Origin: Thiomicrorhabdus xiamenensis
GTDB lineage: Bacteria > Pseudomonadota > Gammaproteobacteria > Thiomicrospirales > Thiomicrospiraceae
Assembly: GCF_013282625.1 (NCBI RefSeq)
Contig: NZ_CP054020.1
Location: forward strand, 496,001 to 560,000
Reading direction: 5' to 3'
Length of the DNA stretch: 64,000 nt
Positions 4,317-53,689 of this stretch are shown here, piece by piece; the first letter of the stretch is position 1; each line of letters begins with the position of its first letter. A program made the position numbers and the translations under genes. Below the pieces are notes generated by a model. That model saw only the letters and a program-made list of their open reading frames with translations. It searched no databases and had not been told where the DNA came from.

Positions 4317-4333
4317 ATGACGGGTATGATGCG

Positions 4334-5566
4334 ATGAAATCCGGCCTGCAATTCCGATCCGCTCTCTCCGGTTCCGCTCATAGACCGCTGGTGCAGTTTG
4401 CGCAAAGCTCGTCTTTGGATCTGCGCCAGAAGCATCTGAGCAAGTTCTGTTACTGGGAAGAGTTCGATCAGGTGCTTTGGGTCGATGCGCGTAAACTTTT
4501 TCCCGAAGTGGGTGTTTTGTCTCTGCCGAGCTGGGACAAAATGATGCTTGATGGCGAGCCGATTCCCGAGTATCCGGTTTTTATCAAACCCTTTGAATGG
4601 CCGAAAAACCGCGAGACGGATCCATGGTTGAAGCAGATTCCCAAATGGGTACAGGATTCGTGCCGTCTTTTCCCCTCCCATCAGCTGATGTTGTTGCATT
4701 ATGCCGCCAAATACCCGCAGCTTTTCGAACTGCTGGATCAATCCCCGATGTTGGCGTGGCGCCTGGTGACCAGCGGTCTGTCCGAGCCGGATGTCGTGGC
4801 TCTGATGACCGGTAACCGGCAGCAAATGGTGCAGCAACTTGGCTGGCCCGGTAAGGCGGAGACAGTCAAACTGTTACGCAATTTGCGCCTGCGCTTTGTC
4901 AATCAACAGATTGCCGAACAGATTGAAGCCTGCATTATCGATCCCAAGCGTCTGCATGGTTTGCAGGCGCTGCCGCGGATCAATTCGATGGCGTTGTCTC
5001 TGGCGGCCGGTTTTCCGCAACTGATCGGCAGTCGATTGCATAAATCGCTGGCGCAATTGCCTTGTCGTCCACTGCAGTGTCAGGCAATGGTCGCTTTGCT
5101 TGAAGATGCTTTATTGTTATTGGCGTTGCTCGGTGCAGAAGATAACGTTGCGCAATTGGCCGAATGCCGTTTTCTGACCGACGTTGAACGTCTTTATAAG
5201 CAGTGGCTTGCAGAGGCTCTGCCGGAAAGCGTGCAGACTGTTGACAGCGGGTTTATCGGTGAGCAGCCGAAAGTCATCGAGCGTGAAGAGGAGTTGGTTT
5301 TTATCAGTCGTGTGCTGCAACATCCTTGGTGGCTGCTTGCCAGGGATATGCCGCAACAGCATTCGATTGTGGTTTGGCGCGAGAAGACTGACGATGGAGA
5401 TGAGCGTCTGTGGGCGGCTGAAATCAAGTGGCCGGATGTTTCGCAATCCGAATCACAGGTTCAGGTTCTGAAAATCCGCGGAGAGGATAATTCTCTGGCG
5501 CAGGCCAAGCAACTCAGCGATCTGCATCTCTGGCTGTTGCAGCAATTGCCTAGAAATGCGGATTGA
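4334..5566 (+). CDS. Conserved-looking protein of unknown function (410 aa)
   Basis: I do not recognise a family. The product is a soluble protein with no signal peptide or membrane segment. It is rich in Leu, Gln and aromatic residues, with many helix-forming stretches (for example AETVKLLRNLRLRFVNQQIA near 180 and a Leu-rich run near 255-268). A C-terminal part (about 310-395) looks like a mixed alpha/beta domain, with HPWWLLARDMP and IVVWREKTDDGDERLWAAEI. It starts 18 bp after rlmI on the same strand and ends at a strong bidirectional terminator, so it is probably the second gene of an rlmI transcript. The ATG at 4334 has only a weak ribosome-binding site. Confidence 0.7.
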   Translation: MKSGLQFRSALSGSAHRPLVQFAQSSSLDLRQKHLSKFCYWEEFDQVLWVDARKLFPEVGVLSLPSWDKMMLDGEPIPEYPVFIKPFEWPKNRETDPWLKQIPKWVQDSCRLFPSHQLMLLHYAAKYPQLFELLDQSPMLAWRLVTSGLSEPDVVALMTGNRQQMVQQLGWPGKAETVKLLRNLRLRFVNQQIAEQIEACIIDPKRLHGLQALPRINSMALSLAAGFPQLIGSRLHKSLAQLPCRPLQCQAMVALLEDALLLLALLGAEDNVAQLAECRFLTDVERLYKQWLAEALPESVQTVDSGFIGEQPKVIEREEELVFISRVLQHPWWLLARDMPQQHSIVVWREKTDDGDERLWAAEIKWPDVSQSESQVQVLKIRGEDNSLAQAKQLSDLHLWLLQQLPRNAD

Positions 5567-5605
5567 GCGGATATTTACATAAGCAAGCGAAGAATGAATG
5601 TCATA

Positions 5606-5644
5606 AAAAAGCCCGCCGGATAATGCGTATCCGGCGGGCTTTTT
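5606..5644. terminator. Bidirectional terminator
   Basis: A near-perfect inverted repeat, AAAAAGCCCGCCGGATA / TATCCGGCGGGCTTTTT with loop ATGCG, lies between the convergent 4334 gene and lysA. It has an A-run on one side and a T-run on the other. Confidence 0.93.
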
Positions 5645-5666
5645 CTTTTTACAGAACGAGGCGGGT

Positions 5667-6917
5667 TTATTCCTCGATCAGTGTTTCCAGGCCGATCAGG
5701 TCATCGTAAGTTTCGCGGCGGCGGATCAGATGTGTCTGCTCGCCGTCAACCATGATCTCCGCAGCGCGCGGACGGGTGTTGTAGTTGGAAGCCATGGTGA
5801 AGCCGTAAGCGCCGGCGGATTTAACCGCCAGCAAGTCGCCTGCCTGCAGGTTAAGCGAGCGGTCTTTACCAAGGAAGTCGCCGGTTTCGCAGACCGGTCC
5901 GACCAGATCCCATTGCGCTTGCAGTCCGTCTTCACGCGGTGTAACGGCGACGATGTCCTGATAGGACTGGTACAGAGCCGGGCGAATCAAATCGTTCATG
6001 GCGGCGTCGATAATGGCAAAATTTTTATGTTCGGTCGGTTTAAGGAACTCGACCTGCGTCAACAGAACGCCGGCGTTTCCGGCAATCGCTCGGCCTGGTT
6101 CAATAATAACTTCCATATCCGGATCGTTGAGTTTGTCCAGAAGCGCGCCGATATAGTCGCTGATGGCCGGAGGGGTTTCATCGGTATAGGTGATGCCCAG
6201 ACCGCCGCCGAGATCCAGGTGGTGGATCTCGATTCCCTGTTCTTGCAAGGTGTTTTTCAGCGCCAAAACACGTTCCAAAGCATCGACGAAAGGCGTGATC
6301 TCGGTCAGCTGAGAACCGATGTGGCAGTCGATTCCGACCGGATTGACATGGCTGCAGTTCGCGGCCTGCTGATAGAGTTCCGGGGCGGTGTTGATATCAA
6401 CGCCGAATTTGTTGTCTTTCAAACCGGTGGAAATATAAGGGTGTGTTTTGGCATCTACATCCGGGTTGACGCGAATCGACACGGCTGCGACCTGATCCAT
6501 CTCTTCGGCGACCTGCTGAATACGATCCAGTTCGGCATGGGATTCGATATTGAAGCAGCGGATGCCCACTTCCAGCGCACGGCGAATTTCTGCAGGCTGC
6601 TTGGCAACCCCGGAAAAGACCACTTTTTTCGGATCGCCGCCGGCACGCAGCACTCTTTCCAGTTCGCCCTGCGAAACGATATCGAAACCGGCACCGAGTT
6701 TGGCCAGAACATTCAGAACAGCAATATTGGAATTGGTTTTGACCGCATAACAGACAAGGTGAGGCTGTTTGCCGAAGGCCTGATCGAAAGCTTTCCAGCG
6801 GTTTTCCAGTTCGCTACGGGAATAAACATACAACGGTGTTCCGTAGTTTTCGGCCAGTTGCGCCAGGGATACGTTCTCGGCAAACAGGGTGCCGTTTTGA
6901 TAGGTGAATGGAGTCAT
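5667..6917 (-). CDS. lysA: Diaminopimelate decarboxylase
   Basis: PLP enzyme making L-lysine from meso-diaminopimelate, the last step of the DAP pathway. It has 416 residues with a fold-type III TIM barrel plus C-terminal beta domain. The PLP lysine is in CYAVKTNSN (near residue 60), HIGSQLTE is near 195, the phosphate-binding LGGGLGITY is near 238, EPGRAI is near 282, and the active-site cysteine is in GPVCETGDFLG near 345. The ATG at 6917 gives the family N-terminus (FTYQNGTLFAENVSLAQLA). A longer in-frame reading to 7151 runs back through lptM in another frame and is rejected. It lies 119 bp downstream of lptM, the usual arrangement in gammaproteobacteria. Confidence 0.96.
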   Translation of the reverse strand: MTPFTYQNGTLFAENVSLAQLAENYGTPLYVYSRSELENRWKAFDQAFGKQPHLVCYAVKTNSNIAVLNVLAKLGAGFDIVSQGELERVLRAGGDPKKVVFSGVAKQPAEIRRALEVGIRCFNIESHAELDRIQQVAEEMDQVAAVSIRVNPDVDAKTHPYISTGLKDNKFGVDINTAPELYQQAANCSHVNPVGIDCHIGSQLTEITPFVDALERVLALKNTLQEQGIEIHHLDLGGGLGITYTDETPPAISDYIGALLDKLNDPDMEVIIEPGRAIAGNAGVLLTQVEFLKPTEHKNFAIIDAAMNDLIRPALYQSYQDIVAVTPREDGLQAQWDLVGPVCETGDFLGKDRSLNLQAGDLLAVKSAGAYGFTMASNYNTRPRAAEIMVDGEQTHLIRRRETYDDLIGLETLIEE

Positions 6918-7036
6918 AATGTTAAGTCCTGAAAATCTGAATTCGGCGATAAAATCCGCTCGGCTTTCCCGTTTGCTCAAAGGCTGCGTTTTCGACGGCA
7001 ACCCGTACGGGGTCTTTAAGCGGATTAAGGAAGTTT

Positions 7037-7165
7037 TTAAGGGCGCTGATTGTCGCTCAATCCCGACAGGCTTTTTTGCGGTTCGTCGGGCAAGGTCAAG
7101 TCGCTTTTTTTGCCGCAGCCGCCCAGAGCGATCAGCACGCATACTACACACAGAAGGGTTTTCAT
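7037..7165 (-). CDS. lptM: Small lipoprotein LptM (YifL-like), upstream of lysA
   Basis: A 42-residue lipoprotein. The signal peptide MKTLLCVVCVLIALGGC ends at a lipobox LGGC (Cys17), followed by GKKSDLTLPDE. This is the hallmark of the YifL/LptM family (LGxCGxKGPLxLP), always found just before lysA. In E. coli LptM assists LptDE assembly at the outer membrane. The ribosome-binding site reads AGGGAAAGG, about 6 nt before the ATG. It is short enough to be missed by standard gene finders. Confidence 0.85.
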   Translation of the reverse strand: MKTLLCVVCVLIALGGCGKKSDLTLPDEPQKSLSGLSDNQRP

Positions 7166-7322
7166 AAAGCCTTTCCCTGAGGTTAACTTCCGATAGTTCG
7201 TTGAATGGCGGCTATTTTACCAGAGACCGGCGCTTTTGGCCGATTTACAATTGTATTCTTGTTACGGCTTGGTAAAGTGGTGCTAAATCTCAAAAATACA
7301 GCAGGAAATTAAGGAATAACGC

Positions 7323-7985
7323 GTGTTTTCACAACTGAAACAGGAGCCGCCGGTTCTGATTGAACCGCAGGGTAAAGTACAAAAAACGGTTATTTGGTTG
7401 CATGGACTGGGTGCGGACGGTCATGATTTTGAACCCGTCGTTCCGCAACTCGGTCTGCCCGAAGACCATGGCATTCGCTTTATTTTTCCGCATGCGCCGA
7501 TTAACCCGGTTACCATTAATGGAGGCATGCAAATGCATTCCTGGTATGACATCCGCAGTGAAGATCTGATGAACGATGTCGATGCCGCCGGTATTCGTGT
7601 TGCCTGTTATCGGGTATTCGAGTTGATTGAAAATCAGCTTAAACAGGGAATGGCCGCTGAAGATATTATTCTTGCCGGTTTTTCACAGGGTGGGTTGATT
7701 GCGCTGCATGCCGCTTTGAGCGGTCAGTATGAACTTGGAGGGGTCATGGGTCTGTCAACCTATTGCCCGATGGCCGAGCAGTTTTACCTGCACCGCAAAA
7801 TGCCGATTCTAATGATGCATGGTCTGTACGATCCGGTTGTCCCTTTAGCCTCCGCAGAGGCGTCCCGCGCCGCGATTGAAAAAGGTGGTTATCAGGTTGA
7901 GTGGCATACCTATCCGATGGCGCATCAGGTTTGTGCTGAGCAGCTGCTTAAGATCGGAGAATGGCTGCAGCAAAGAGAGGCTTAA
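7323..7985 (+). CDS. Carboxylesterase / acyl-protein thioesterase family alpha/beta hydrolase
   Basis: Serine hydrolase of 220 residues, typical of the bacterial EstB/YpfH/APT family, cleaving short-chain esters or thioesters in the cytoplasm. The oxyanion-side motif VIWLHGLGADGHDF is near residue 23-36. The nucleophile Ser is in GFSQGG near 119, the catalytic Asp is in MHGLYDPVVP near 168, and the His is in YPMAHQVC near 200. It starts with GTG at 7323, preceded by AAGGA. Its stop is 2 bp before the next gene, so the two are co-transcribed. The natural substrate cannot be read from sequence. Confidence 0.9.
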   Translation: MFSQLKQEPPVLIEPQGKVQKTVIWLHGLGADGHDFEPVVPQLGLPEDHGIRFIFPHAPINPVTINGGMQMHSWYDIRSEDLMNDVDAAGIRVACYRVFELIENQLKQGMAAEDIILAGFSQGGLIALHAALSGQYELGGVMGLSTYCPMAEQFYLHRKMPILMMHGLYDPVVPLASAEASRAAIEKGGYQVEWHTYPMAHQVCAEQLLKIGEWLQQREA

Positions 7986-7987
7986 TC

Positions 7988-8497
7988 ATGACCCAGCCGG
8001 ATTCAAAAATTCAGCAGGCATGCCGCGATTTCTGGCAATCCAAAAAGACGCTGGTCCTCAGTACTCGGAATGCCGAAGGAAAGCTACACAGCAGTCAGAC
8101 CCCGTTTGCCTTCAACGATCAGGGCGAGTTGGCGATATTTGTCAGTGCCTTAGCGGAACATACCGGCAATCTGCTGCAATGTATCGAAGCGGAATCATGT
8201 GCAATTTCCGGAATGATTCTGGCGGATGAAGCGGAGTGCGAGCAGATTTATGCGCGTGAGCGTTTGAGTCTGGAGATGCAGGTTGCGCTTGTCGAGCGTG
8301 ACGATGCACAATTTGTTGAATGGATGTTGCGTTTTGAGAAGCGTTTTGGCGACATTATTGCTACGCTGCAGACATTGCCGGATTTTTCGCTTTTCCGGCT
8401 TAAGGTGACCAAAGCGGTGTATGTCCGCGGCTTTGCCCAGGCCTATCTTCTGGAAGGCGGTTTGGGCGGCTTGCCGCGATTGCAGAAAGGTCGTTAG
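7988..8497 (+). CDS. HugZ / pyridoxamine-phosphate-oxidase-like split-barrel protein
   Basis: A 169-residue split beta-barrel protein of the FMN-binding/heme-utilisation (HugZ) superfamily. The pattern is a short N-terminal helix, then TLVLSTRNAEGKLHSSQTPF, LAIFVSALAEHTGNLL and a C-terminal SLFRLKVTKAVYVRGFAQAYLL, which in HugZ proteins carries the heme-proximal loop. Members bind heme or flavin. I cannot tell which from sequence. The ATG at 7988 follows the esterase stop directly. Heme degradation would fit with the nearby iron genes (feo), but that link is inference. Confidence 0.75.
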   Translation: MTQPDSKIQQACRDFWQSKKTLVLSTRNAEGKLHSSQTPFAFNDQGELAIFVSALAEHTGNLLQCIEAESCAISGMILADEAECEQIYARERLSLEMQVALVERDDAQFVEWMLRFEKRFGDIIATLQTLPDFSLFRLKVTKAVYVRGFAQAYLLEGGLGGLPRLQKGR

Positions 8498-8529
8498 AAA
8501 AGCATTTTTAGTCGTTAATTGGATAGCTC

Positions 8530-9459
8530 ATGGGAAATGGACGTCGTTTTTTCCGTTTTGATGTACCGATTCATATTTACCTGCAACGGGAGTCGTCGGA
8601 ATGGAAGCAGACATTGCAGCAGTTGAAAGGTCCGCGAAGCGCAGCTCTGCAGAGAAAAATCGAAAGTTTGAATATCACGGTCGATCAACTGCTTGAAGAT
8701 CTTTCCACTCGCGGAGCGCCGTTGTATCCGCTGTTTTCGGGCATCAATCACCGTCTGAACTATTTTTTCTGGATGCTGCAGCAGTTGCTGGATCAACAGA
8801 ACCCGCGCGTGCATGCGGAATATAAGTTCCGTGCCCGCGACGATCTGAAATATTCTCCGCCGGAGGTCAAAAAAGATTCGCCGACCAGTCATTTGATTGC
8901 CGGGCTATACGCTGAACTGGAGGAAGAACTGAGTTCTTTGAAAGACAGTGTTGAGAATGCTCTGGACGAGGGACTGTTCATTTTTCCGCAGGCTGAGAGA
9001 GAAGATTTTGACGTGCATTTCTATGTATCCAACCTTGAGCAGCTGGTTGCGCAGGGGATGACGGCGGCCGTTGTATTGGATGCATTGATCCGCAAATATA
9101 ACCAGCTCAACGCGCTCTATAACCTTCTTAAAAGAGCCTATGCTCCGATTTCGCATCCCGAGCAATGGCCGAAAAGAATGATTAATCTCAGTTCCGGAGG
9201 ACTGGGATTTGTTTCTGCCAATCCTTTTAAAGTGCTGGAGCAGGTGAATGTTTTTATGGAACTGGATCGGGTTGTGATGGTCAAAGGCAAAGTGCTGTAT
9301 TCACGCAAAACCCGCTCGACGGAAGGCGAACAGTACCGCACGGCAATCGAATTTATTATGCCTTCCAGTCGAACACAGCAGGATATTGAGCGCTTTCTGC
9401 AACATCAGGAAGTTCGCCAGGCGATGCACAAAGTGCCGGTGATTCGCAGTTGGGTTTAG
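8530..9459 (+). CDS. PilZ-type cyclic-di-GMP-binding protein (309 aa)
   Basis: Predicted c-di-GMP receptor. The two PilZ ligand motifs are present but far apart. An RxxxR is at residues 5-9 (GRRFFRFDVPI) and the N/DxSxxG motif is near 219 (INLSSGGLGF), followed by a beta-barrel ending in QYRTAIEFIMP. Between them is a long helical region (about 30-205). The wide spacing suggests either that the N-terminal motif is not the ligand-binding arginine pair or that a helical domain has been inserted. Its end overlaps the convergent feoC by 4 bp. A window EAL/GGDEF enzyme (30726-33149) could supply the signal, but that is speculation. Confidence 0.75.
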   Translation: MGNGRRFFRFDVPIHIYLQRESSEWKQTLQQLKGPRSAALQRKIESLNITVDQLLEDLSTRGAPLYPLFSGINHRLNYFFWMLQQLLDQQNPRVHAEYKFRARDDLKYSPPEVKKDSPTSHLIAGLYAELEEELSSLKDSVENALDEGLFIFPQAEREDFDVHFYVSNLEQLVAQGMTAAVVLDALIRKYNQLNALYNLLKRAYAPISHPEQWPKRMINLSSGGLGFVSANPFKVLEQVNVFMELDRVVMVKGKVLYSRKTRSTEGEQYRTAIEFIMPSSRTQQDIERFLQHQEVRQAMHKVPVIRSWV

Positions 9460-9725
9460 ACGTTGTTGGCGTGTAACTGAACCGGGAAGTTGAGTTGGCG
9501 CAGTTTGTTATCGAGCCATTGATAGTAAGTCTGATTGCTTTGACAGGCGCTACTGCAGCGCCCGGTTGAACAGCTGGCGGACAGCGATTGGATATGTCCC
9601 TGACTGATCAAAGGCTGTAGCAGACCTTCGGCTGCGTCCCGACTCAGATCGAAGCGGTTGATAATATCGTCCAGACTGACTCGCTCTCTTTGGCGGATAT
9701 AGCGTTTAATGTCTAACAGAATCAT
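9456..9725 (-). CDS. feoC: FeoC-like iron-sulfur winged-helix regulator
   Basis: An 89-residue partner of FeoB. It has a winged helix (ILLDIKRYIRQRERVSLDDIINRFDL) followed by a cysteine-rich wing, SCSTGRCSSACQ, near residues 49-61, which matches the Fe-S-binding loop of FeoC. FeoC proteins bind FeoB or shield it from proteolysis. The start ATG overlaps the feoB stop (ATGA), so translation is coupled. The reading frame extends upstream inside feoB, but only this start gives the family length. Confidence 0.85.
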   Translation of the reverse strand: MILLDIKRYIRQRERVSLDDIINRFDLSRDAAEGLLQPLISQGHIQSLSASCSTGRCSSACQSNQTYYQWLDNKLRQLNFPVQLHANNV

Positions 9726-12082
9726 AAAGCCTTTCCTCCCGAGGTTTTTTCTAACGGTGCGGTTGCTGTTTTTCTTCCGATCGATTTCAGGGTAAACCAA
9801 ATCATTGCGAAAATCGAGGCGAATACCGCCAGCCAAATGCCCGATGCGCTCGGATGCTGGCTGAAAGTTGCGATCTGGTAAAAGCTGACCGCAACCGAAT
9901 ATCCCAGGAACAGGCTCCAGGTTCCGCTGGTTAAAGCCCAGCGCCAGCCCAGTTCCTGCTTAATCGCCCCGAAAGTCGCGACACACGGGAAATACAGGAG
10001 AATAAGCAACAGATAGGCGTAGGCACCGATAGCGCCCTGGAAGGAGTTGACCATCTTATCCAGAGTGCTCAGGCTGAATCCCTGTTCTTCGGCAATCGCC
10101 ACCTTGTCATGCACCGACTCAATCGACTGCAGACCGAGCGGGTCGGAAATATCGCCGAAGATGCCGCTCAGGTTATCCGGTATTGTCTGCCAGGCTTCTT
10201 TCAAGCTGGCGCCCAGACTGAACTCGGCAGCGCTGTCCATTTCGATATTCTGTTGCTGGTAGAGAGCATCAAGCGAGCCAACGACCACTTCTTTAGCCAG
10301 CAGACCGGTAAACAGACCGACGGTCGCAGGCCAGTTCTCTTCCGTGATACCTAGCGGTTCAACGATCGGTGTTGCGCTTTTGGCAATGCTGCTTAGAACC
10401 GAAGTTTCCTGATTGTCATGTCCAAAGGTACCGTCCGTACCGAGGCTATTAAGCACGTTCAGAATCAATACCACTATGACGATGACCTTACCGGCGTCGA
10501 GAATAAAGCTTTTCAGTCGATTACGGGTATTGATGAGCACATTCAGTGCGGTTGGCTTGTGATAGATCGGCAGTTCCATCAGCAATGGGCGCGCCTGACC
10601 GCTGAGCAGGGTTTTCTTCAGCATCCAGGCGGTAAGAATGGCGGCCAGAATCCCGGTCATATACAGTGAGAAGACAATCAGCGCGGCATTCTCTTCAAAG
10701 AAAGCGGTTGCGAACATGACATACACTGTCAGTCGGGCGCTGCACGACATGAAAGGAGTCATCATGATGGTTTTGATTCGATCCTGCTGAGCCGGTAGCG
10801 TCCGGCTGGCCAGTACCGCCGGAATGTTGCACCCGAAACCGATTACCAAGGGAACCAGCGCTTGACCGGACAAACCGAGGCGGCGCATGAAGTTATCCAT
10901 AATCAGGGCCGCGCGCTGCATGTAACCGGTGTCTTCAAGGATCGAAAGCAGAAGATACAGGGCTCCGATGACCGGAATAAAGGTGGCGACCACCTGTACG
11001 CCGCCGCCGATACCGTTGGCAATCAGCGAGGTCAGCCATTCGGGGGATCCGAGCCAGCCGAGGAAATTGGCGGTGCCGTCGACAAACAGTGCTTGGGCGC
11101 CGAGATCGAAGAAGTCGATAAAGACGTTACCGACCGCAATCGAAGCGGCGAACAGCAGATACATAATTCCGAAAAAGATCGGCAGGCCCCAGATCGGATG
11201 CAGGACCCAGCGATCAATACTGTCGGTCGTATTGCGGGTGAATTGGTCGGTACGGATTTCACTGGCATGCGCGGCATCATGCGCAAACTGAAAATAAAGA
11301 TCCGCTGCGATCAGTGCCAGATCTTCATGGTAATGTTCTTCCAAACGCTGTTTTTCGGCGATACAGAAACTCTGCAGCGCCGTGTCCGCGGTATGTGGAT
11401 GAATCAGCATCTGTAACGTTTTCCAGCACGATTCTCCGACCGAATCTTCGCTTTCCAGCCCTTGCGCGTCGCGCACCTGATGCACACTGTTATGCAGAAC
11501 CTCCGGCAGGTCGAAGTGCAGATCGACACGGTGATTAAGATACTGCGGCAGCTGCTGCTTGAGTTGATCGATTCCCTTATTGAGATAAGCCGAAATCGGG
11601 ATGACAGGACAGTGCAGCTGCTCGGAAAGTTTGTCGATATCGATATGCAGATTGCGTTCTTTAAGCAGATCCATACGGTTGAGAACGACAACCACAGGCA
11701 ACCCCATATGCAGTAGTTGCGCCGTCAGGAAAAGCTGACGTTCAAGACTGGTTGCATCCACCACATTAATAATCAGGTCAGCCGGCTGGCATTGCAGGAA
11801 ATTACAGGCAACTTTTTCATCCAGGCCGGAATGATTGGACAGATCAAGACTGTAAACTCCGGGCAGATCAATCAGGTGGTAGTTCTGATTGTTCAATTTG
11901 AAATAGCCGGATTTCTGTTCAACTGTAACCCCGGGCCAATTCCCGGTTGTCTGCTGCGAACCGGTCAGGCGGTTGAATAGGGTGGTTTTCCCGCAGTTAG
12001 GGCTGCCGATGAGAGCAACCTGAACATTATGCTGCAGGGCAAATTGGGATTTGCTTTTTGAATTGCGGGCTAAAACGGTCAT
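9722..12082 (-). CDS. feoB: Ferrous iron transport protein B
   Basis: Inner-membrane Fe2+ transporter with an N-terminal GTPase, 786 residues. G1 is GSPNCGKTTLFN (near 27), G3 is DLPGVYSLD (near 73), G4 is NRMD (near 136), and SAYLNKGID is a G5-like segment. The membrane half (from about 300) has two Gate regions, with GFGCNIPAVLASRT near 416 and the AKEVVVGSL segment near 590. The C-terminus carries further membrane helices. The operon order is feoA-feoB-feoC, with 4-bp overlaps on both sides, downstream of a Fur box. Confidence 0.97.
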   Translation of the reverse strand: MTVLARNSKSKSQFALQHNVQVALIGSPNCGKTTLFNRLTGSQQTTGNWPGVTVEQKSGYFKLNNQNYHLIDLPGVYSLDLSNHSGLDEKVACNFLQCQPADLIINVVDATSLERQLFLTAQLLHMGLPVVVVLNRMDLLKERNLHIDIDKLSEQLHCPVIPISAYLNKGIDQLKQQLPQYLNHRVDLHFDLPEVLHNSVHQVRDAQGLESEDSVGESCWKTLQMLIHPHTADTALQSFCIAEKQRLEEHYHEDLALIAADLYFQFAHDAAHASEIRTDQFTRNTTDSIDRWVLHPIWGLPIFFGIMYLLFAASIAVGNVFIDFFDLGAQALFVDGTANFLGWLGSPEWLTSLIANGIGGGVQVVATFIPVIGALYLLLSILEDTGYMQRAALIMDNFMRRLGLSGQALVPLVIGFGCNIPAVLASRTLPAQQDRIKTIMMTPFMSCSARLTVYVMFATAFFEENAALIVFSLYMTGILAAILTAWMLKKTLLSGQARPLLMELPIYHKPTALNVLINTRNRLKSFILDAGKVIVIVVLILNVLNSLGTDGTFGHDNQETSVLSSIAKSATPIVEPLGITEENWPATVGLFTGLLAKEVVVGSLDALYQQQNIEMDSAAEFSLGASLKEAWQTIPDNLSGIFGDISDPLGLQSIESVHDKVAIAEEQGFSLSTLDKMVNSFQGAIGAYAYLLLILLYFPCVATFGAIKQELGWRWALTSGTWSLFLGYSVAVSFYQIATFSQHPSASGIWLAVFASIFAMIWFTLKSIGRKTATAPLEKTSGGKAL

Positions 12083-12300
12083 GATAACGGCTCGACTTCA
12101 ACCAGTTCGGCAATCTGCTTATCGAGAGCGAAACGGCTGCCATCAACGGTAATGACCAAATTGTTGCCGCGAATCATAATCAATTCGACCACACTGTGGG
12201 TGTGAAAGCCGAGATTGACCAAGCGCATTTTCATCTCGACTTCGCCTTTGAGGTGAGTGATTTGGGCGATTTGTCCATTGGTACATTCTGATAGCAGCAT
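12079..12300 (-). CDS. feoA: Ferrous iron transport protein A
   Basis: A 73-residue SH3-like cytoplasmic protein needed for FeoB activity. The fold is recognisable from EVEMKMRLVNLGFHTHSVVELI and RGNNLVITVDGSRFALDKQIAELVEVE. Its stop overlaps the feoB start by 4 bp. It is the first gene of the feo operon, 44 bp downstream of a Fur-like palindrome. Confidence 0.95.
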   Translation of the reverse strand: MLLSECTNGQIAQITHLKGEVEMKMRLVNLGFHTHSVVELIMIRGNNLVITVDGSRFALDKQIAELVEVEPLS

Positions 12301-12343
12301 GTAATCTCTCGAAAATTATGCGGTTTCGCTAAACCGGAAAAAT

Positions 12344-12366
12344 AAATGATAATAATTATTATTTGC
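12344..12366. promoter_or_regulatory. Fur box upstream of feoABC
   Basis: AATGATAATAATTATTATTT is an AT-rich near-palindrome matching the GATAAT-type hexamers of the Fur consensus, about 45 bp upstream of feoA. Iron-replete repression of feoABC is inferred. Confidence 0.8.
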
Positions 12367-12509
12367 GAATTTTAGCAAACTCTAATCTAAAGCTCAATCG
12401 CGAGACCGGGATGAACTATGAAAGAAAGCTGAATCGATAAAGAAATCGCGTGTTATAACCTGCAAAACGGCGAGAGGAAAGGTTTCCCGCTGCCGCCTGC
12501 AGAGAAGAG

Positions 12510-13127
12510 TCACTTTTTGCGAATCTGGTAGAGTGCCACTTCGCCCAGAAGGTTCGGCGCAATTCGCATGCCGAGAGAACTCTCATGTTCGCTGTTGACC
12601 ACGGTGCGTGCGACCACCTTGATATGCTTGTCCTCACACAGCTTTTCGAAATCCTTGAAGGTACACATATGAATATTCGGCGTGTCGAACCAGTGGTAAG
12701 GCAGCGTTTCGGTTTCCGGCATGGTGCCGCCGAACATCAGTTGCGCACGGTTCCTCCAGTGGCCGAAGTTCGGGAAAGTGATAATGCAGTTTTTGCCGAT
12801 GCTGAGCATTTCGTCCAGTAGCTCATCCGGACGGCTGACCACCTGAAGCGCCTGTGTCATGATGACATAGTCGAAGGAGTCTTCGTCAAAATAATAGGTC
12901 AGATCATAACTGTTCAGATCCGTCTGAATGACATTGATGCCGTTGCCCAGCGCCTGAGTCGTTTTATCCGGATCCAGCTCCATGCCATAGCCGTTGACGT
13001 TATGGGTTTTGATCAGATAATTCAGCAACTCGCCGTCTCCGCAGCCCAAATCCAGTACGCGGCTGTCAGGTTGAATCCAGTCGGAAATCAACTTGAACTC
13101 GTTGGAAATGATTTTTCCTTGATTCAT
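12510..13127 (-). CDS. metW: Methionine biosynthesis protein MetW
   Basis: Methyltransferase-like protein of 205 residues that partners MetX. The SAM-type motif [12 protein letters not shown] is near 26-37 and [13 protein letters not shown] is near 85-97. MetW activates or stabilises the MetX acyltransferase in many proteobacteria. The start overlaps the metX stop by 4 bp, the standard metX-metW coupling. It is the last gene of the proC-yggT-metX-metW run, with no clear T-rich terminator behind it. Confidence 0.95.
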
Positions 13128-48759: not shown

Positions 48760-48836
48760 GGGCCCTTAGCTCAGTTGGTTAGAGCATCCGACTCATAATC
48801 GGCAGGTCCACGGTTCAAGTCCGTGAGGGCCCACCA
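48760..48836 (+). tRNA. tRNA with CAT anticodon (Ile2-like; elongator Met not excluded)
   Basis: A 77-nt cloverleaf including the encoded CCA. The acceptor is GGGCCCT/AGGGCCC, the D-arm is TAGCTCAGTTGGTTAGAGCA, the anticodon CAT is at 48794-48796 in loop CTCATAA, and the T-stem is CACGG/CCGTG. The CTTAGCTCAG...CGACTCATAATCG pattern is closest, from memory, to lysidine-modified tRNA-Ile2. A CAT anticodon is shared with elongator Met. Its 3' half is the attachment site of the element that follows. Confidence 0.93.
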
Positions 48837-48840
48837 TTTC
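48790..48840 (+). repeat. Left attachment repeat (3' half of the tRNA)
   Basis: A 51-bp segment from the anticodon loop to just past CCA, repeated at 53639-53689. The copies differ only in the T-stem (CACGG/CCGTG here, CCCAG/CTGGG on the right). Confidence 0.88.
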
Positions 48841-48901
48841 AAAGCCTTTATTTATAAGCCTTGTAGCTATTTAAGAATAATTCTTAATTAGTCGATTTTT
48901 C

Positions 48902-48924
48902 TTCGGACTAACACGGGGCTAACA
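48902..48924. repeat. GGACTAAC-type direct repeat, left end
   Basis: A 23-bp copy starting TTCGGACTAAC and ending GGGGCTAACA. It is repeated with one mismatch at 53485-53507 and partially at 53430-53441. Likely integrase arm-binding sites near both ends of the element. Confidence 0.7.
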
Positions 48925-48926
48925 AT

Positions 48927-49451
48927 TCATTTCACTAAATCGCCGCTTTCGTTAATAGCTTTATCAATTCCTTCTGCTGTTTCATGGCAGATTTGTGTCA
49001 CTTGATTGACTGTCTGCTTAATAACCTCTATTACTTGTTTATCTAAGTTCAAATCTAGTGTTTCTATATGATCAGGCAAAGTTGAGGCGGTTTGAATAAC
49101 GTGATGGCTTTGTCTGATTACTATTGCTTTGAGCAATTCTTTAGGGAGTAGCTGATTTAATAAATTTTCATTTTTGATTTCTAATGCCTCAGCTCTTAAT
49201 CTGGTCAAACGTGTTTGTTCTATTTGGGCTTTAGTTGAATCTGTGCTGTGTTTGTTTTCGTTTTTAGCTGTTAAGTTTTGTAGGTAGCTCTGTACACACT
49301 CGGTTAAGTCATAACCTTTGTTTGGTGATCTTTTGGGTATTACTCCTTTTTGCTCAAGGTTATAGACTTGTCTAGTGCTTAGTCCAAGGTGTTCGGCTAA
49401 CTGCTGTTGTGTTAATTCTGTGTCTAAACTCTGGTCGATTTTGATTGTCAT
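48927..49451 (-). CDS. Nu1-like terminase small subunit / helix-turn-helix protein
   Basis: A 174-residue protein. An N-terminal helix-turn-helix (ELTQQQLAEHLGLSTRQVYNLEQKGVIPK) resembles lambda gpNu1-type DNA-packaging proteins. A helical middle (IEQTRLTRLRAEALEIKNENLLNQLLPKELLKAIVIRQ) and C-terminal acidic helices follow. This pattern is common in terminase small subunits of phages and satellites, where it recognises the packaging site. The ATG at 49451 has GGGAG 8 nt upstream. An ATG at 49466 in frame overlaps that site. No large terminase is in the element. Alternatively it is a plain transcription regulator. Confidence 0.7.
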   Translation of the reverse strand: MTIKIDQSLDTELTQQQLAEHLGLSTRQVYNLEQKGVIPKRSPNKGYDLTECVQSYLQNLTAKNENKHSTDSTKAQIEQTRLTRLRAEALEIKNENLLNQLLPKELLKAIVIRQSHHVIQTASTLPDHIETLDLNLDKQVIEVIKQTVNQVTQICHETAEGIDKAINESGDLVK

Positions 49452-49552
49452 TGCTTGTTCTCCCATTTGTTTCCCAGTTTTCTTTAATCGGTTGCTTGAA
49501 TCGGAAAGAAATGCCTTTTTAAAAACTTCATAAGTAGAGAAATTTTGCGCCT

Positions 49553-50524
49553 CTATGTACCCTTTAAAGAAGCTTGCCTACAGGGGCCCTGAGGTTTGAG
49601 TCGTGATGTTCCGTAATCTTTGCTCTGTGCTGGCCGGAATCCTTTACCGCGTGTCTTTGCTAAATAAGAAGAGTGATAGATCATTTCGTTAAAACTGGCT
49701 TTGTCATCTACTTGGTGGAATCCTGCCAGTGTTACGTTAGTAAAGTAGCTTGATCGCTTGACGATGGGTTTAACTGTTGCCGCCATAGTTTCTTTAAACC
49801 AAACCTTTTGACCGTCTACTGCGACAAAGACATGGTAGTGCTGTTTTTTGACGTTCTCGACCTCTCGTACCCAGATGTATGCGGTGTTCTTTGCGCCAAA
49901 TTTGCGCTCCAATAATTGAACCAAGCTCTTGCGAAATCCTGTCATCATTTTGTTGTCACTGGTGTAATAAGCGGTGCTTAGAATAATGTGCTGAACAAAA
50001 ATGCGACCATGTAAAGAGAAGGCCGCATCGAACTGCTCAATAATGCGCGTCATTATTTCCGTGTAAATCGAATATTTAGTCTTGCCGCTTTTGCTTCGTG
50101 TTATCACCTCAAAAAATACGCCGTTATGCTCAAAGTGAGTTTCATCAGTTTGTTTCTTTCTATTGGTTAATTTTTTTCTACTTTTTCTCTTAGTGGGGTG
50201 GTTACAAATAGGGGATATTATTAAACTCCCCTTGTTTTTTACATCGGGAGCCTTGGGAAAAGCCCCGCTGGTTCTGGTCTGTGCTGAGTTTTGTGTGTCA
50301 AAACCGCGTGTGTCAAAACCGTTTGTGTGTTTTGTGTCAAAACCGCTTTTTTCAATACTTAATTTTTTGGTTAATTTTGTGCCCGTTTGAGTCACCCAGT
50401 TCGTGCTTCTGGTTTCATGGAATAGGGTAGCCGCGACAAAATCAGAAAAGCCAAGCGCACCGAAATTCAATGTGCCGCCGAACTGATTAAAATCACGCCC
50501 ACCGATAAAGTGAGCGCGAGTCAT
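49553..50524 (-). CDS. YfjJ/inovirus Gp2-like replication protein
   Basis: A 323-residue protein. The C-terminal half (about 125-300) resembles YagK/YfjJ and inovirus Gp2 proteins, with FFEVITRSKSGKTKYSIYTEIMTRI, VQLLERKFGAKNTAYIWVREVE and the two-histidine motif KQHYHVFVAVDG near 217-228. That motif is the HUH-like metal motif of Rep nucleases. These are linked to rolling-circle initiation. The N-terminal 120 residues are low-complexity and basic, with GFDT repeats. The gene starts 3 bp after the stop of the 92-aa gene and has AGGGG before its ATG. Confidence 0.7.
   Translation of the reverse strand: MTRAHFIGGRDFNQFGGTLNFGALGFSDFVAATLFHETRSTNWVTQTGTKLTKKLSIEKSGFDTKHTNGFDTRGFDTQNSAQTRTSGAFPKAPDVKNKGSLIISPICNHPTKRKSRKKLTNRKKQTDETHFEHNGVFFEVITRSKSGKTKYSIYTEIMTRIIEQFDAAFSLHGRIFVQHIILSTAYYTSDNKMMTGFRKSLVQLLERKFGAKNTAYIWVREVENVKKQHYHVFVAVDGQKVWFKETMAATVKPIVKRSSYFTNVTLAGFHQVDDKASFNEMIYHSSYLAKTRGKGFRPAQSKDYGTSRLKPQGPCRQASLKGT
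50295..50345. repeat. Three iteron-like 12-bp direct repeats inside the Rep gene
   Basis: GTGTCAAAACCG occurs at 50295-50306, 50310-50321 and 50334-50345 (spacings 15 and 24). It encodes GFDT repeats in the Rep protein but could also be a Rep-binding origin. Confidence 0.6.
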
Positions 50525-50526
50525 AA

Positions 50527-50805
50527 TTACCCCTTGATTAGTTTGTGAGAGGCCAATATTGCCTCCGCTTTCTGGTAATCGTCAGGGTGTAGGTAGTAGC
50601 GTTTAAAGCGTTTTTCTAGGTGCTTATCCCACACGGTAATAATGCGCAGTCCTTCAAATTCGCCACCTTTATTAAAATGGTTGCGGAAATAATGGTTGCC
50701 TTGAGGTTGTTTGCCGTAAGAGGCGTTTGTCGCGCCGTTACCGTATAGGCTTTGCTGATATAGATAGGCAAGGGCTTTAACGTGTTCTGGAATCTCCTGT
50801 TTCAT
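50527..50805 (-). CDS. Small basic protein of the element (92 aa)
   Basis: Not recognised. Starts MKQEIPEHVKALAYLYQQSLYGNGATNASYG and ends YYLHPDDYQKAEAILASHKL. Soluble and basic, with one aromatic-rich region (NHYFRNHFNKGGEFEGLRII). Its start overlaps the AlpA stop by 4 bp, so it is translated together with AlpA, and it sits directly upstream of Rep. Confidence 0.7.
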   Translation of the reverse strand: MKQEIPEHVKALAYLYQQSLYGNGATNASYGKQPQGNHYFRNHFNKGGEFEGLRIITVWDKHLEKRFKRYYLHPDDYQKAEAILASHKLIKG

Positions 50806-51017
50806 GCCTTACCCTCCCCAGTGTGGAGCTGTACACGACTTTCGAGCCATGATTCAACGTCTGTTACGCGGTAAAGCACTTTGCGCCCTACTTTGATAAA
50901 GGGCAAGTTGTAGCGGCCTGTCATGCGCCAAGTAGCAAGTGTTCCAACTGTAACGCCGATTAACTCTGACACTTGTTCAGGTGTGTGGTATTTTGGGATT
51001 TTATTTCTCAAGTTCAT
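50802..51017 (-). CDS. AlpA-like regulator / excisionase
   Basis: A 71-residue winged-helix protein of the AlpA/MerR-like helix-turn-helix group: YHTPEQVSELIGVTVGTLATWRMTGRYNLPFIKVGRKVLYRVTDVESWL. In P4-type and PICI-type elements AlpA activates the integrase and replication genes or acts as an excisionase. AAGGA precedes the ATG. It overlaps the next gene by 4 bp. Confidence 0.85.
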   Translation of the reverse strand: MNLRNKIPKYHTPEQVSELIGVTVGTLATWRMTGRYNLPFIKVGRKVLYRVTDVESWLESRVQLHTGEGKA

Positions 51018-51121
51018 GATTTTTTCCTTATATCAATTTATGGATATATGGAATTGCGCAAAACCATGTTGAGTAGATTAAAGATATTTAAGGCGGGGCG
51101 GCAGGGTCATTAAATAACTAA

Positions 51122-51781
51122 TTATTGTCCCCTCTGTATTAGAGATCTTCTTCTTATTCTTTTATGCTTTTTTTCTACGCTGTCAGGCTCTATGTGGTGC
51201 GTTTTAGCGTAAACTTCATAAGCTTGGCTGTATGAACCTGTTGATTGTTTAAGTTCTTCGATTTCTTGAAGAAATAAATCGTCTTTGGTTTGAGGTTTTG
51301 AAGTGTGGTTAATTCTCGATTGTAATAGCTTGATTCTGTCGGCTTGGTTTTGTTTGGGACGGCCTTTGCCTTTTGATTTAATCTCGTTTATCTCTGTCAG
51401 CATTTCCTTGTCCATGAGTATTCTTGCCAGTTTGTGAATAGCTCTTATGCTTAGTTTTTTTATGCGGCCTTTTACTTTATTCCTTTCTTCATCACTGAGG
51501 GTTGGCATTGAGTAGTCTTCAAAGCTTATTGATTTGCCTCCGATCATTTTTAGTATTGCTTCTCCAGCTTCGGTCGGAGTGTTGTCAATCTCACTTTCCC
51601 CTAATAGCTCTAAAGCGTTAAATAAGTATTGTGCGGTAAGGGAGTCAATCTCTAATTTTTCAAATTCACTCTCTGGCATGGAGTGTAGTTCTTCTAGAAA
51701 GACTTGATACCCAAAAGGGTGTGAGCCTTTTTCATCAAAGTGTTCCATCAAGTTTAAAAACGCGCTTTTGTTGAATCCCAT
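51122..51781 (-). CDS. Unknown element-borne protein (219 aa)
   Basis: Not recognised. Soluble and charged. The N-terminal half is helical (NKSAFLNLMEHFDEKGSHPFGYQVFLEELHSM, LEIDSLTAQYLFNALELLGESE). The C-terminal half is Lys/Arg-rich (EINEIKSKGKGRPKQNQADRIKLLQSRI and a final KKHKRIRRRSLIQRG), which suggests nucleic-acid binding. Sits between the AlpA gene and a 60-aa gene. It is preceded by GGAG. Confidence 0.65.
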   Translation of the reverse strand: MGFNKSAFLNLMEHFDEKGSHPFGYQVFLEELHSMPESEFEKLEIDSLTAQYLFNALELLGESEIDNTPTEAGEAILKMIGGKSISFEDYSMPTLSDEERNKVKGRIKKLSIRAIHKLARILMDKEMLTEINEIKSKGKGRPKQNQADRIKLLQSRINHTSKPQTKDDLFLQEIEELKQSTGSYSQAYEVYAKTHHIEPDSVEKKHKRIRRRSLIQRGQ

Positions 51782-51881
51782 GAGAAAGTCTCCAAGCTCA
51801 AATACCCTTATGAGTTGGGTGGCGCGGTCAGGGGGGGGATCCCTTTTCGAGTGGCCGCTCTAGGCCGTGCCAATGTTGTGT

Positions 51882-52064
51882 CTAAAAGGTGGTGTATTTA
51901 CCGCATTGTGTTGTTTTACCGTTGAAGTTTGCTCTCCAGTTTTCCAGCTCTTTTCTGGTTGTGAAGTAAGGCGATCTAAAGATTTGACCGTCTTTTTTAA
52001 AGTGAGCGCAATAGAACTCTGTTACTTCTTTTGTGTCAATTTGTTGTTGTGTGACGATTGCCAT
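51882..52064 (-). CDS. Small element-borne protein (60 aa)
   Basis: Not recognised. A short mixed protein (VTQQQIDTKEVTEFYCAHFKKDGQIFRSPYFTTRKELENW...). A perfect AAGGAGG ribosome-binding site 5 nt before the ATG makes it a real gene. It starts 12 bp after the integrase stop. Confidence 0.65.
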   Translation of the reverse strand: MAIVTQQQIDTKEVTEFYCAHFKKDGQIFRSPYFTTRKELENWRANFNGKTTQCGKYTTF

Positions 52065-52076
52065 TGTTGTGCCTCC

Positions 52077-53387
52077 TTAAACGGCTTTGTTTTGATTTAG
52101 TAAGCGCATAATTAAGTGTTGTTTTTCCGCATCGCTAAGGTTTTTTACAAGCTCATTTAGTTTGCTGTCTGTATCTGTAATAGTGCGGCCTGCTTTTTCC
52201 AGATAAGTGTTAGTGATTCGTTGTGATGGCTCTCTGAGTTCATCCGCGTTCTGAATTATGTAACCTGCTGTTACATCATTGCTTAGGGCGTGGTTAGCCA
52301 ATTGCTTTAGCAGATGGTCATTAAATCCAAGTCGAGCCCCTGTACTTAAAAAAGTTCTTCGTAGGTCGTGTGCTGTAATTTCTACACCTGTTTGTTCTAG
52401 CAGGTGGCGCAATGGCTTTTTGATATCTGATATATGTTTTTCGTTATTGGTTGCGCTAGGGAAGACGAATTGACTTCTTGTACTTAGCTTTTTGCGCCGC
52501 TTAAATACTTTTTCGCTTTCGCTGGTCATTGGTAGCCATAGTCGGCGACCGTTTTTGGTTTCAGTTAGGTAGAAGCGTTTGTATTTAATTTCGACCTGCT
52601 CCCATTTCATTGAAGCTGTTTCAGTTATTCGTGTGCCGTGATAGAAAAGAACTAGGGCTAGATCCGCACCTATTTGGTAGAAGGGGCGGGAGTCTGTTGC
52701 CAGCTCTTCAAACGTGTCTAAGAACGGTTTTATTTGATCGTCTTCTAGCTTTCTTGTTTTGCGCTCTAATCTGGTGAATTGTTTGTTTTTGCTGAGCTTT
52801 TTGACTGGATTCTCAAGAATAAGCGGGTTGCCGTTTAAATCCCTAATTTCATCCATTGCCATGTTAAAAATAGCTCTAAGTAAACGCATTGCCCTATCGG
52901 CTTCTGCTTGCGAGCGTTTAGCGTAGTCTTTGTGGATTTTAAGAATTTTGCTGTAGTCTATTTCTGTTATGGGGGTGTTGGCTAATGGTGACAGGACTAG
53001 GCGAAATGAAGAGCGATATCCTCGAACTGTTCGCGGCTTTAGTGCTTTCATTTGAAGGTAGAGCTCAAGCATTTCTGCGAGCGTTGCTTGCTTGGTGCGT
53101 TGAAACTTCTTTTTCTGATTGGGATTTATGCCTTCGGCGAAATCATCTTGCGCCGCACGGGCTTTCTTTCTGGCTTGCTCTATAGTGGTTTTGGGGTAGG
53201 TTCCCAATGAGACTTCTATTTGCTTGCCATTAATGCGCCCACCAACTTTAAAGGACTTTGCCCCGCCTTTATTTTTGATTCTGAGGTATAGGCCATTCGC
53301 TTTTTTGTGCGAGTCGTAATAGGTTCCTTTTTTTGAGATTGAGTCTAGTTCTTCAACTGTAAAAGGAAATTCATTCTTTTCTGCCAT
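52077..53387 (-). CDS. P4-type tyrosine integrase
   Basis: Site-specific recombinase of 436 residues. The N-terminal DUF4102-type domain (GLYLRIKNKGGAKSFKVGGRINGKQIEVSLGTYP) is near 28-62, the SAM-like core-binding domain near 100-200, and the catalytic domain has HGTRITE (Arg) near 257, AHDLRRTF (His/Arg) near 340, NHALS near 365 and the tyrosine near AGYIIQ (about 375). The gene starts 250 bp from the right attachment copy and reads inward. Integration into a tRNA 3' half fits the family. Confidence 0.93.
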   Translation of the reverse strand: MAEKNEFPFTVEELDSISKKGTYYDSHKKANGLYLRIKNKGGAKSFKVGGRINGKQIEVSLGTYPKTTIEQARKKARAAQDDFAEGINPNQKKKFQRTKQATLAEMLELYLQMKALKPRTVRGYRSSFRLVLSPLANTPITEIDYSKILKIHKDYAKRSQAEADRAMRLLRAIFNMAMDEIRDLNGNPLILENPVKKLSKNKQFTRLERKTRKLEDDQIKPFLDTFEELATDSRPFYQIGADLALVLFYHGTRITETASMKWEQVEIKYKRFYLTETKNGRRLWLPMTSESEKVFKRRKKLSTRSQFVFPSATNNEKHISDIKKPLRHLLEQTGVEITAHDLRRTFLSTGARLGFNDHLLKQLANHALSNDVTAGYIIQNADELREPSQRITNTYLEKAGRTITDTDSKLNELVKNLSDAEKQHLIMRLLNQNKAV

Positions 53388-53429
53388 CTGTATATAGCCT
53401 GTTTAATGCTAAATTCGCTAAAAGCAGGT

Positions 53430-53507
53430 TTCGGACTAACATTTAAAACGAGCTTTCCGCATGTAGCCTGCGTTTGAGATCTGTTTCGGACTAACGCGGG
53501 GCTAACA
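53430..53507. repeat. GGACTAAC-type repeats, right end
   Basis: A 23-bp copy at 53485-53507 with one mismatch to 48902-48924, plus a shorter copy TTCGGACTAACA at 53430-53441. Probable integrase arm sites between int and the right attachment repeat. Confidence 0.7.
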
Positions 53508-53638
53508 TTTACCATCTATTTTAAGCTATTTTGGGGTATTTACAAATATGCAGAGATACTAACTAAAATCCTTAATAAACAATAGGTTAGTGTGTAAATT
53601 GTTGATAAATAAAGTGATTAAAAAATAGGCAGATTTCA

Positions 53639-53689
53639 GACTCATAATCGGCAGGTCCCCAGTTCAAGTCTGGGAGGGCCCACCATTTC
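53639..53689 (+). repeat. Right attachment repeat (partial tRNA copy)
   Basis: A copy of the tRNA 3' half beginning at GACTCATAATCGGC and ending after CCA. It has no 5' half and is not a functional tRNA. The T-stem differs from the left copy by paired changes. Confidence 0.88.

Follow-up and report, generated by a model that had tools for sequence, protein, structure and literature searches.

We analysed a window of 64,000 nucleotides from Thiomicrorhabdus xiamenensis (contig NZ_CP054020.1, positions 496,001 to 560,000; window numbering is used throughout), whose genome is a single contig of 2,594,948 bases. The window carries a seven-gene element inserted in a CAT tRNA gene. This element is probably a minimal integrated phage satellite, similar to the PICMI satellites (phage-inducible chromosomal minimalist islands) of Vibrionaceae, with a packaging adaptor of its own, a protein resembling the small subunit of phage terminase (TerS). 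We base this reading on the attachment and arm-type repeats, on the nearest relative, in which the site is unoccupied, on the TerS similarity and on the HUH motif of the replication protein (Rep). Further support comes from the conserved order of integrase (int), AlpA and Rep genes in related loci, from TerS genes in two related elements and from a Rep-type element at fis. The frequent overlap of int with the next gene, as often seen for the PICMI gene iolg, and the absence of a detected large terminase in the host genome point in the same direction. A sequence-only reading of the window had proposed such a satellite; we retain it as the best explanation, while the redirection of packaging by TerS is something we infer by analogy.

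Integration site and genes of the element

The element spans 4,849 bp and all its genes are on the minus strand, in the reading order int, 60-aa gene, 219-aa gene, AlpA, 92-aa gene, Rep and TerS. The features of the locus, including a helix-turn-helix (HTH) regulator, are as follows.

48760–48836, plus strand: CAT tRNA gene in which the element is integrated; the intact copy, on the attL side (Rfam tRNA, 70.6 bits)
48787–48840, plus strand: attachment repeat, copy 1 (54 nt, 91% identical to copy 2)
48902–48927, no strand: arm-type repeat, copy 1, putative integrase arm site (26 nt, 92% identical to copy 2)
48927–49466, minus strand: small terminase-like protein, 179 aa (phrog_57, E=4.7e-21; C-terminal part alone, 4.5e-7)
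49553–50524, minus strand: HUH-type Rep, 323 aa, of the YagK/YfjJ, inovirus Gp2 type (PF11726, 28.8 bits; invariant QHYH)
50527–50805, minus strand: 92-aa protein between AlpA and Rep (no family match)
50802–51017, minus strand: AlpA/excisionase-like HTH regulator, 71 aa (PF12728, 36.6 bits, cut-off 27)
51122–51781, minus strand: 219-aa protein (no family match that counts)
51805–51870, minus strand: int-alpA-like structured RNA (RF02996, 27.6 bits, E=0.011; compensatory changes)
51882–52064, minus strand: 60-aa protein, 12 nt after int (relatives beside int in two elements)
52077–53387, minus strand: tyrosine integrase, 436 aa (PF00589, 71.1 bits)
53485–53510, no strand: arm-type repeat, copy 2, putative integrase arm site (26 nt, 92%)
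53636–53689, plus strand: attachment repeat, copy 2, the displaced 3' part of the tRNA on the attR side (54 nt, 91%)

The spacing of the two tRNA-derived repeat copies equals the span of the element. The top match to the locus after the host genome itself was in the nearest relative, G043 (88% across 398 of the 401 query bases), where the site is empty: there is a single tRNA, and the joined flanks of the window align through it (85% counting end gaps). Since both flanks run together at this single tRNA, the repeat is not a chance similarity, and site-specific integration of the element in the tRNA gene is evident from the sequence. ARAGORN labelled the CAT-anticodon tRNA as tRNA-Met; it is presumably the Ile2 (lysidine) tRNA. 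The same tRNA gene was occupied by different elements in G023 and G022 (9.7 and 9.3 kb, with exact repeats of 48 and 50 nt, respectively), and the integrase of the window was 63% identical to that found at this site in G023.

Two T-stem pairs, each of them compensated, distinguish the displaced tRNA part from its intact counterpart; G043 has the version of the intact copy and G032 that of the displaced copy. The T-stems (48809–48825 and 53658–53674) are different, yet fully paired, and both 3' parts therefore look derived from working tRNAs. The divergence of the displaced part, together with the single known copy of the element and the lack of a helper detected in the genome, would fit what is left of a prophage after deletion, or a now immobile satellite. 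On the other hand, compensated pairs are not decay, all seven frames are open, attachment and arm sites are present at both ends, and compact relatives with the same gene order exist in other genomes and at other sites. We consider either case very improbable.

The sequence-only reading had described a tRNA-gene element of 4.85 kb with integrase, AlpA-like, Rep and TerS-like genes in one direction between copies of the tRNA 3' half, and these main features lie where it had put them; the arm-type repeats near both ends and the structured RNA at 51805–51870 are additions to it. It had also suggested that the three unrecognised open reading frames could interfere with a helper or defend the host. 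For two of them this is less likely: the 60-aa and 92-aa genes are more probably core genes than defence cargo, because they occupy backbone positions, beside int and between AlpA and Rep, respectively. Relatives of the 60-aa protein adjoin int in the elements of G029 and G055 (39 and 21% identity). The 92-aa protein, with no family match that counts in the profile searches, had a short weak similarity to the gene in the same slot of the G188 element (19 residues, E=0.002 in a set of 31 sequences). The 219-aa protein, which may still have such a role, had no family match that counts, and none of the other 61 genomes of the order contained a relative (1 of 62 with its own genome included). No virion, lysis or large-terminase gene was recognised among the genes of the element.

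Rep scored 28.8 bits against YagK_YfjJ_C (PF11726; cut-off 25.8) and 24.9 bits against REP_ORF2-G2P, under the cut-off of 27.8. The QHYH motif was invariant across 10 of 10 aligned Reps, and residues Y287 and K290 were nearly so; the G055 frame ends before both. The structure model of Rep had a mean pLDDT of 55.7, and the chains of AAV Rep, TYLCV Rep and Helitron matched it with Z of 6.1–6.5, with unrelated folds scoring equal or higher.

Relatives of the element

Rep was detected in 4 of the 62 genomes of the order, its own genome included. The class and phylum searches found it in 8 of 370 and 17 of 397 genomes, respectively (its own genome and G124 were counted in both). We opened 21 Rep loci (4 from the order, 7 from the class search and 10 from the phylum search), leaving unopened seven matches of the phylum search and G300 of the class search. 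In 15 of the 21 loci, int was followed on the same strand by AlpA and then Rep, a count that describes gene order and is no independent test, as the profiles were partly built from the same loci. The insertion sites of these elements are tRNA genes, tmRNA genes and, in one case, fis. The other six loci were G055 (where the sole shortfall is an AlpA that the profile missed), one cut by a contig end, one in which int is read from the other strand, and three that lack an AlpA or a recognised int on the strand of Rep. The sequence-only reading had proposed a search for the same gene order in related genomes; int, AlpA and Rep do recur in it at other sites. That reading would have been abandoned if the relatives were always full prophages or decayed elements; those opened were mostly compact int-AlpA-Rep elements.

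Repeats of at least 20 nt were found in 7 of the 20 loci probed (G055, G023, G022, G682, G188, G124 and G756), while the rest had shorter ones or none. In G682, an int/AlpA/HUH-Rep element of about 3.8 kb (L104 5395–9242) lies beside a Fis-family gene with a repeat of 43 nt at 98%. The G188 element (L063), of about 4.1 kb, is in tRNA-Thr with a repeat of 51 nt at 100%; its AlpA was matched by our own-built profile (3.9e-9) and by no Pfam family. Compared with these two, in neither of which a TerS was recognised, the element of the window, proposed to be among the smallest such elements, is small but not the smallest of its type. The repeats in G124 and G756 are 20 nt (tRNA-Arg) and 23 nt (tmRNA), respectively. 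With start codons chosen mechanically, 9 of 16 elements showed an overlap between int and the gene after it, which measured 4 nt in five of them; in the window there is a 12-nt gap instead.

TerS genes of another family were found at the tRNA-side end of the elements of G032 and G055, both from the host family and both with int, AlpA and Rep (PF03592, 38.1 and 43.6 bits; phrog_51, 6.7e-18 and 3.6e-21, respectively). The G055 element has 8.06 kb and is in tRNA-Val with repeats of 49 nt, 98% identical; its AlpA matches Phage_AlpA, and its Rep frame contains one stop. In G032 the repeat in tRNA-Arg is weak (27 nt at 81% or 17 nt at 94% in two repeat searches). A lone relative of a DNA-ejection protein (L042 10647–11630; phrog_4287, 7.7e-25) stands beside the TerS of this small element, in which no capsid gene was seen. 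The part of the locus read in the fourth Rep genome, G035, had no TerS.

The scan for TerS in the other Rep elements compared PHROGs with the genes after Rep rather than with all open reading frames. Candidates outside the host family were rejected: a weak HTH-only match in G124 (phrog_1206, 2.8e-6), a DUF5681 protein in G108 and, in G439, an HNH protein whose HNH part matches the TerS-named phrog_4581 (2.1e-8). The G124 element also contains an Eco57I-type restriction-modification enzyme (L061 5093–8329), likely cargo of a Rep-type element. Two elements adjacent to groEL (L065 10348–10620, L097 9733–10026) have in common a small HGGLSTG protein after Rep with no family match.

The TerS-like protein and the satellite reading

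The match of the 179-aa protein to phrog_57, the lambda-type terminase small subunit, covers most of the protein (residues 15–169), and phrog_57 was found again when the C-terminal 119 aa were searched alone. Because this match extends past the HTH into the C-terminal part, the protein is, judged by profile, TerS-like and more than a regulator; the objection that it could be a transcription regulator only did not hold. In two phage records the large-subunit gene adjoins the lambda-type TerS gene, whereas the gene of the window has none beside it. TerS was found in 2 of the 62 genomes of the order, its own included. Phage records gave 25 TerS matches, each covering at most 46% of the query. A match in Devosia (L002) proved false, being antisense to a transporter-type gene.

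RppC has a TerS-like winged-helix domain (PMC6739421), and the N-terminal domain of the 179-aa protein aligned over 57 residues with 6hn7, which comes from the Rpp paper (Z 7.4). The element could be a satellite whose 179-aa protein is an Rpp-like redirector, which pairs with the TerS of the helper and alters its choice of DNA. However, the tool rates such a Z as common, 6hn7 was not among the matches at E up to 1 in the sequence search of solved structures, and the phrog_57 match covers the C-terminal part too. We regard a redirector of this kind as unlikely.

The nearest named relatives of Rep were plasmid proteins (17 plasmid records, of which 9 were from Psychrobacter and 15 were annotated as inovirus-type Gp2). 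These relatives, the AlpA-like HTH of the 179-aa protein and the lack of a recognised TerS in most opened Rep-type elements would suit another reading, that of an integrative element in a tRNA gene that replicates in the manner of a small plasmid without being packaged, its TerS-like protein being a DNA-binding regulator only. Against it, the TerS similarity reaches past the HTH, and the G032 and G055 elements have a TerS of another family at the corresponding end, next to the DNA-ejection-protein relative in the case of G032. We find the plasmid-like alternative less probable still than a redirector.

The sequence-only reading had also proposed a search for a resident prophage with a compatible large terminase. 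In the host genome no large terminase was found by the GpA_ATPase or phrog_2 profiles, the other large-terminase families not being searched singly; in 14 control genomes these profiles rang in 3 and 11, respectively. The helper would therefore be an incoming phage and probably comes from outside the genome. Across the order, 7 of 62 genomes had a GpA_ATPase match, which exceeded the cut-off in 5; G029 is one of these genomes. The element there (L011, about 1.1–14.8 kb) has int, TerS and a GpA-type large terminase, with no virion gene seen among five proteins scanned, and appears to be a satellite-like island with a whole terminase.

Several results weigh against a satellite with its own packaging adaptor. 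A clear TerS was found in just 3 of the 21 Rep loci (the window, G032 and G055). The TerS of the window scored 20.9 bits against Pfam Phage_Nu1, under the curated cut-off of 30; its HTH resembles the AlpA protein 8c3t (E=0.00022 in the sequence search of solved structures), and the alignment with 6hn7 described above belongs here as well. Structure models of the element's proteins were weak, and the top rows for TerS were mostly unrelated helical proteins. Phage records had no match to Rep, virion contigs yielded nothing related to TerS, to Rep or to the 219-aa protein (these scans reach mainly close relatives), and no cos/pac site was identified in the element. The RNA of the window scored below the gathering score of RF02996 (27.6 against 35.8 bits), and our local RNA model gave no hit in the elements of G032 and G055. 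Finally, excision, replication and packaging of the element are predictions from its sequence and from analogy.

The analogy is primarily with PICMI115 of Vibrio, which requires int, alpA and prim and in which a terS homologue was not found; it replicates in what is read as a rolling-circle mode and enters particles in the form of concatemers (PMC10803314). PICMI and the element of the window share a small number of genes, the order of int, int-linked small gene, alpA, (small gene) and replication gene, and the lack of a capsid gene. PICMI have a DUF3987/DUF5906 primase and a fis site, whereas the element of the window has an HUH Rep, a tRNA site and its own TerS. The overlap of int by iolg, frequent in PICMI, has its counterpart in the 9 of 16 Rep-type elements. 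Among the features by which PICMI are recognised, the window has the integrase (PF00589) and, of the two AlpA families PF05930 and PF12728, the latter. No match to the primase families (PF13148, PF19263) was found among the 7 window proteins at E up to 1, the HUH Rep standing in that place, and the site is a tRNA gene rather than fis; in G682, a Rep-type relative lies at a gene of the Fis family. Since primase and fis site were both tested and neither was found, we do not file the element as a PICMI; on present evidence, it would work like one.

Because the genes occupy the same slots as in PICMI115, with an HUH Rep at the place of prim and TerS after it, the following course can be proposed. 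An incoming helper phage would derepress the AlpA operon. AlpA and the integrase, perhaps with the 60-aa protein, would excise a circle, which the HUH Rep would nick, so that rolling-circle replication gives concatemers. The TerS of the element would bind a pac/cos-like site of its own and recruit the large terminase of the helper, and helper heads would be filled with element concatemers. During dormancy, the int-alpA-like RNA, located ahead of the 219-aa, AlpA, 92-aa, Rep and TerS genes, may silence them.

Other known systems are less similar. Some Gram-negative PICIs carry a terS homologue, so that satellites with a lone TerS are known (PMC6092414). They have an integrase and AlpA, as in the window, and a replication gene of their own; that gene is pri-rep in PICIs, while the window has an HUH Rep, few genes and no further packaging or capsid-remodelling gene recognised. 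The Pseudomonas islands I23, I44 and I55 have an integrase and an AlpA adjoining an inovirus Gp2-like protein, and I55 is preferentially packaged by a jumbo phage (PMC12595487). Unlike the element of the window, they are much larger (common region of about 18 kb), use a tmRNA site and have many cargo genes; the word terminase is absent from the available text (PMC12595487). Charybdis elements are of similar size, but their authors recognised no terminase or replication gene, as far as the available sections go (PMC12324425). Our literature searches, with most subscription papers outside reach, returned no described group of minimal int-AlpA-Gp2-type Rep elements; neither a minimal HUH-Rep form with its own TerS nor a change of TerS family on one backbone was found.

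With PICMI, what a satellite requires had been cut down to three core genes, with no packaging gene of its own. The element of the window would be the same plan with another replication enzyme and TerS added, and with it one can test whether the exchange of a single packaging gene determines the phage on which a satellite depends. A wider picture, which we put forward tentatively and somewhat doubtfully, is that of mini-satellites widespread in Pseudomonadota, with a backbone of about 4–8 kb (int, int-linked gene, AlpA, HUH Rep) and rolling-circle concatemers. The packaging adaptor would sit in a swappable end cassette, so that replacing one gene directs the same backbone to another helper phage; the adaptor might be a Nu1-like TerS here and a Terminase_2-type TerS elsewhere, once with a DNA-ejection protein. 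In part of the host family, dormancy would be controlled by the RNA.

The int-alpA-like RNA

The RNA is located between the 60-aa and 219-aa genes, where 73 nt of non-coding sequence show 88% identity to the element of G029. Its 26-nt core (up to 3 mismatches) was found in 6 of the 62 genomes of the order, compared to none for a reversed-pattern control, and all six copies adjoin an integrase gene or integrase fragment. A diverged copy is present in the G023 element; conserved copies were found in six genomes besides the host's own. In seven sequences, 7 of the 19 predicted pairs had compensatory changes, and one outer-stem pair was broken in the window. A model built from the seven sequences and run on 22 sources recovered all of them plus a single additional match (E=0.45).

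The fold, as well as the place between int and alpA, is that of the Rfam int-alpA RNA (RF02996), from which the copy of the window differs by scoring under the gathering score. When six related loci were scanned whole at gathering level, G023 and G010 passed. In the class, RF02996 was detected in 40 of 369 genomes (39 over the cut-off), compared to 0 of 14 control genomes; in the host genome, the scan picked up a second locus instead of the window copy. Ten RF02996 loci, taken with about 1.5 kb per side (one shorter), had the int profile in 6 cases and the AlpA profile in 2. These counts are a partial test of a link between the RNA and satellite-like islands. The RNA is little studied: the one paper found names it among predictions only, in its available sections (PMC12370729). 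Satellite-like islands would give it a place in which its role is testable.

We also considered the conserved site as a cos/pac site, the window and G029 copies being in TerS-bearing elements, and set this aside in favour of the RNA, because the pairs covary and an Rfam family matches. The site is present as well in the elements of G010, G027, G031, G051 and G023, where no TerS was noticed, though not every gene was scanned. It may still have a role in packaging. Phage records had no match to it, and the occurrence of an 18-mer of it in a virion contig (L067), within a long open frame, is coincidental.

The second RF02996 locus of the host genome is in another island (L124, C1:1379001–1399000, about 3360–12850), with int, an int-alpA RNA at 44.6 bits, above the gathering score, and AlpA. 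A 577-aa protein of this island looks, by eye, like the DUF927 protein of G010. A different RNA, sRNA-Xcc1 (RF02221), was above its gathering score at L075 7673–7761 and L077 12189–12275, in or beside islands with int-alpA-like RNA.

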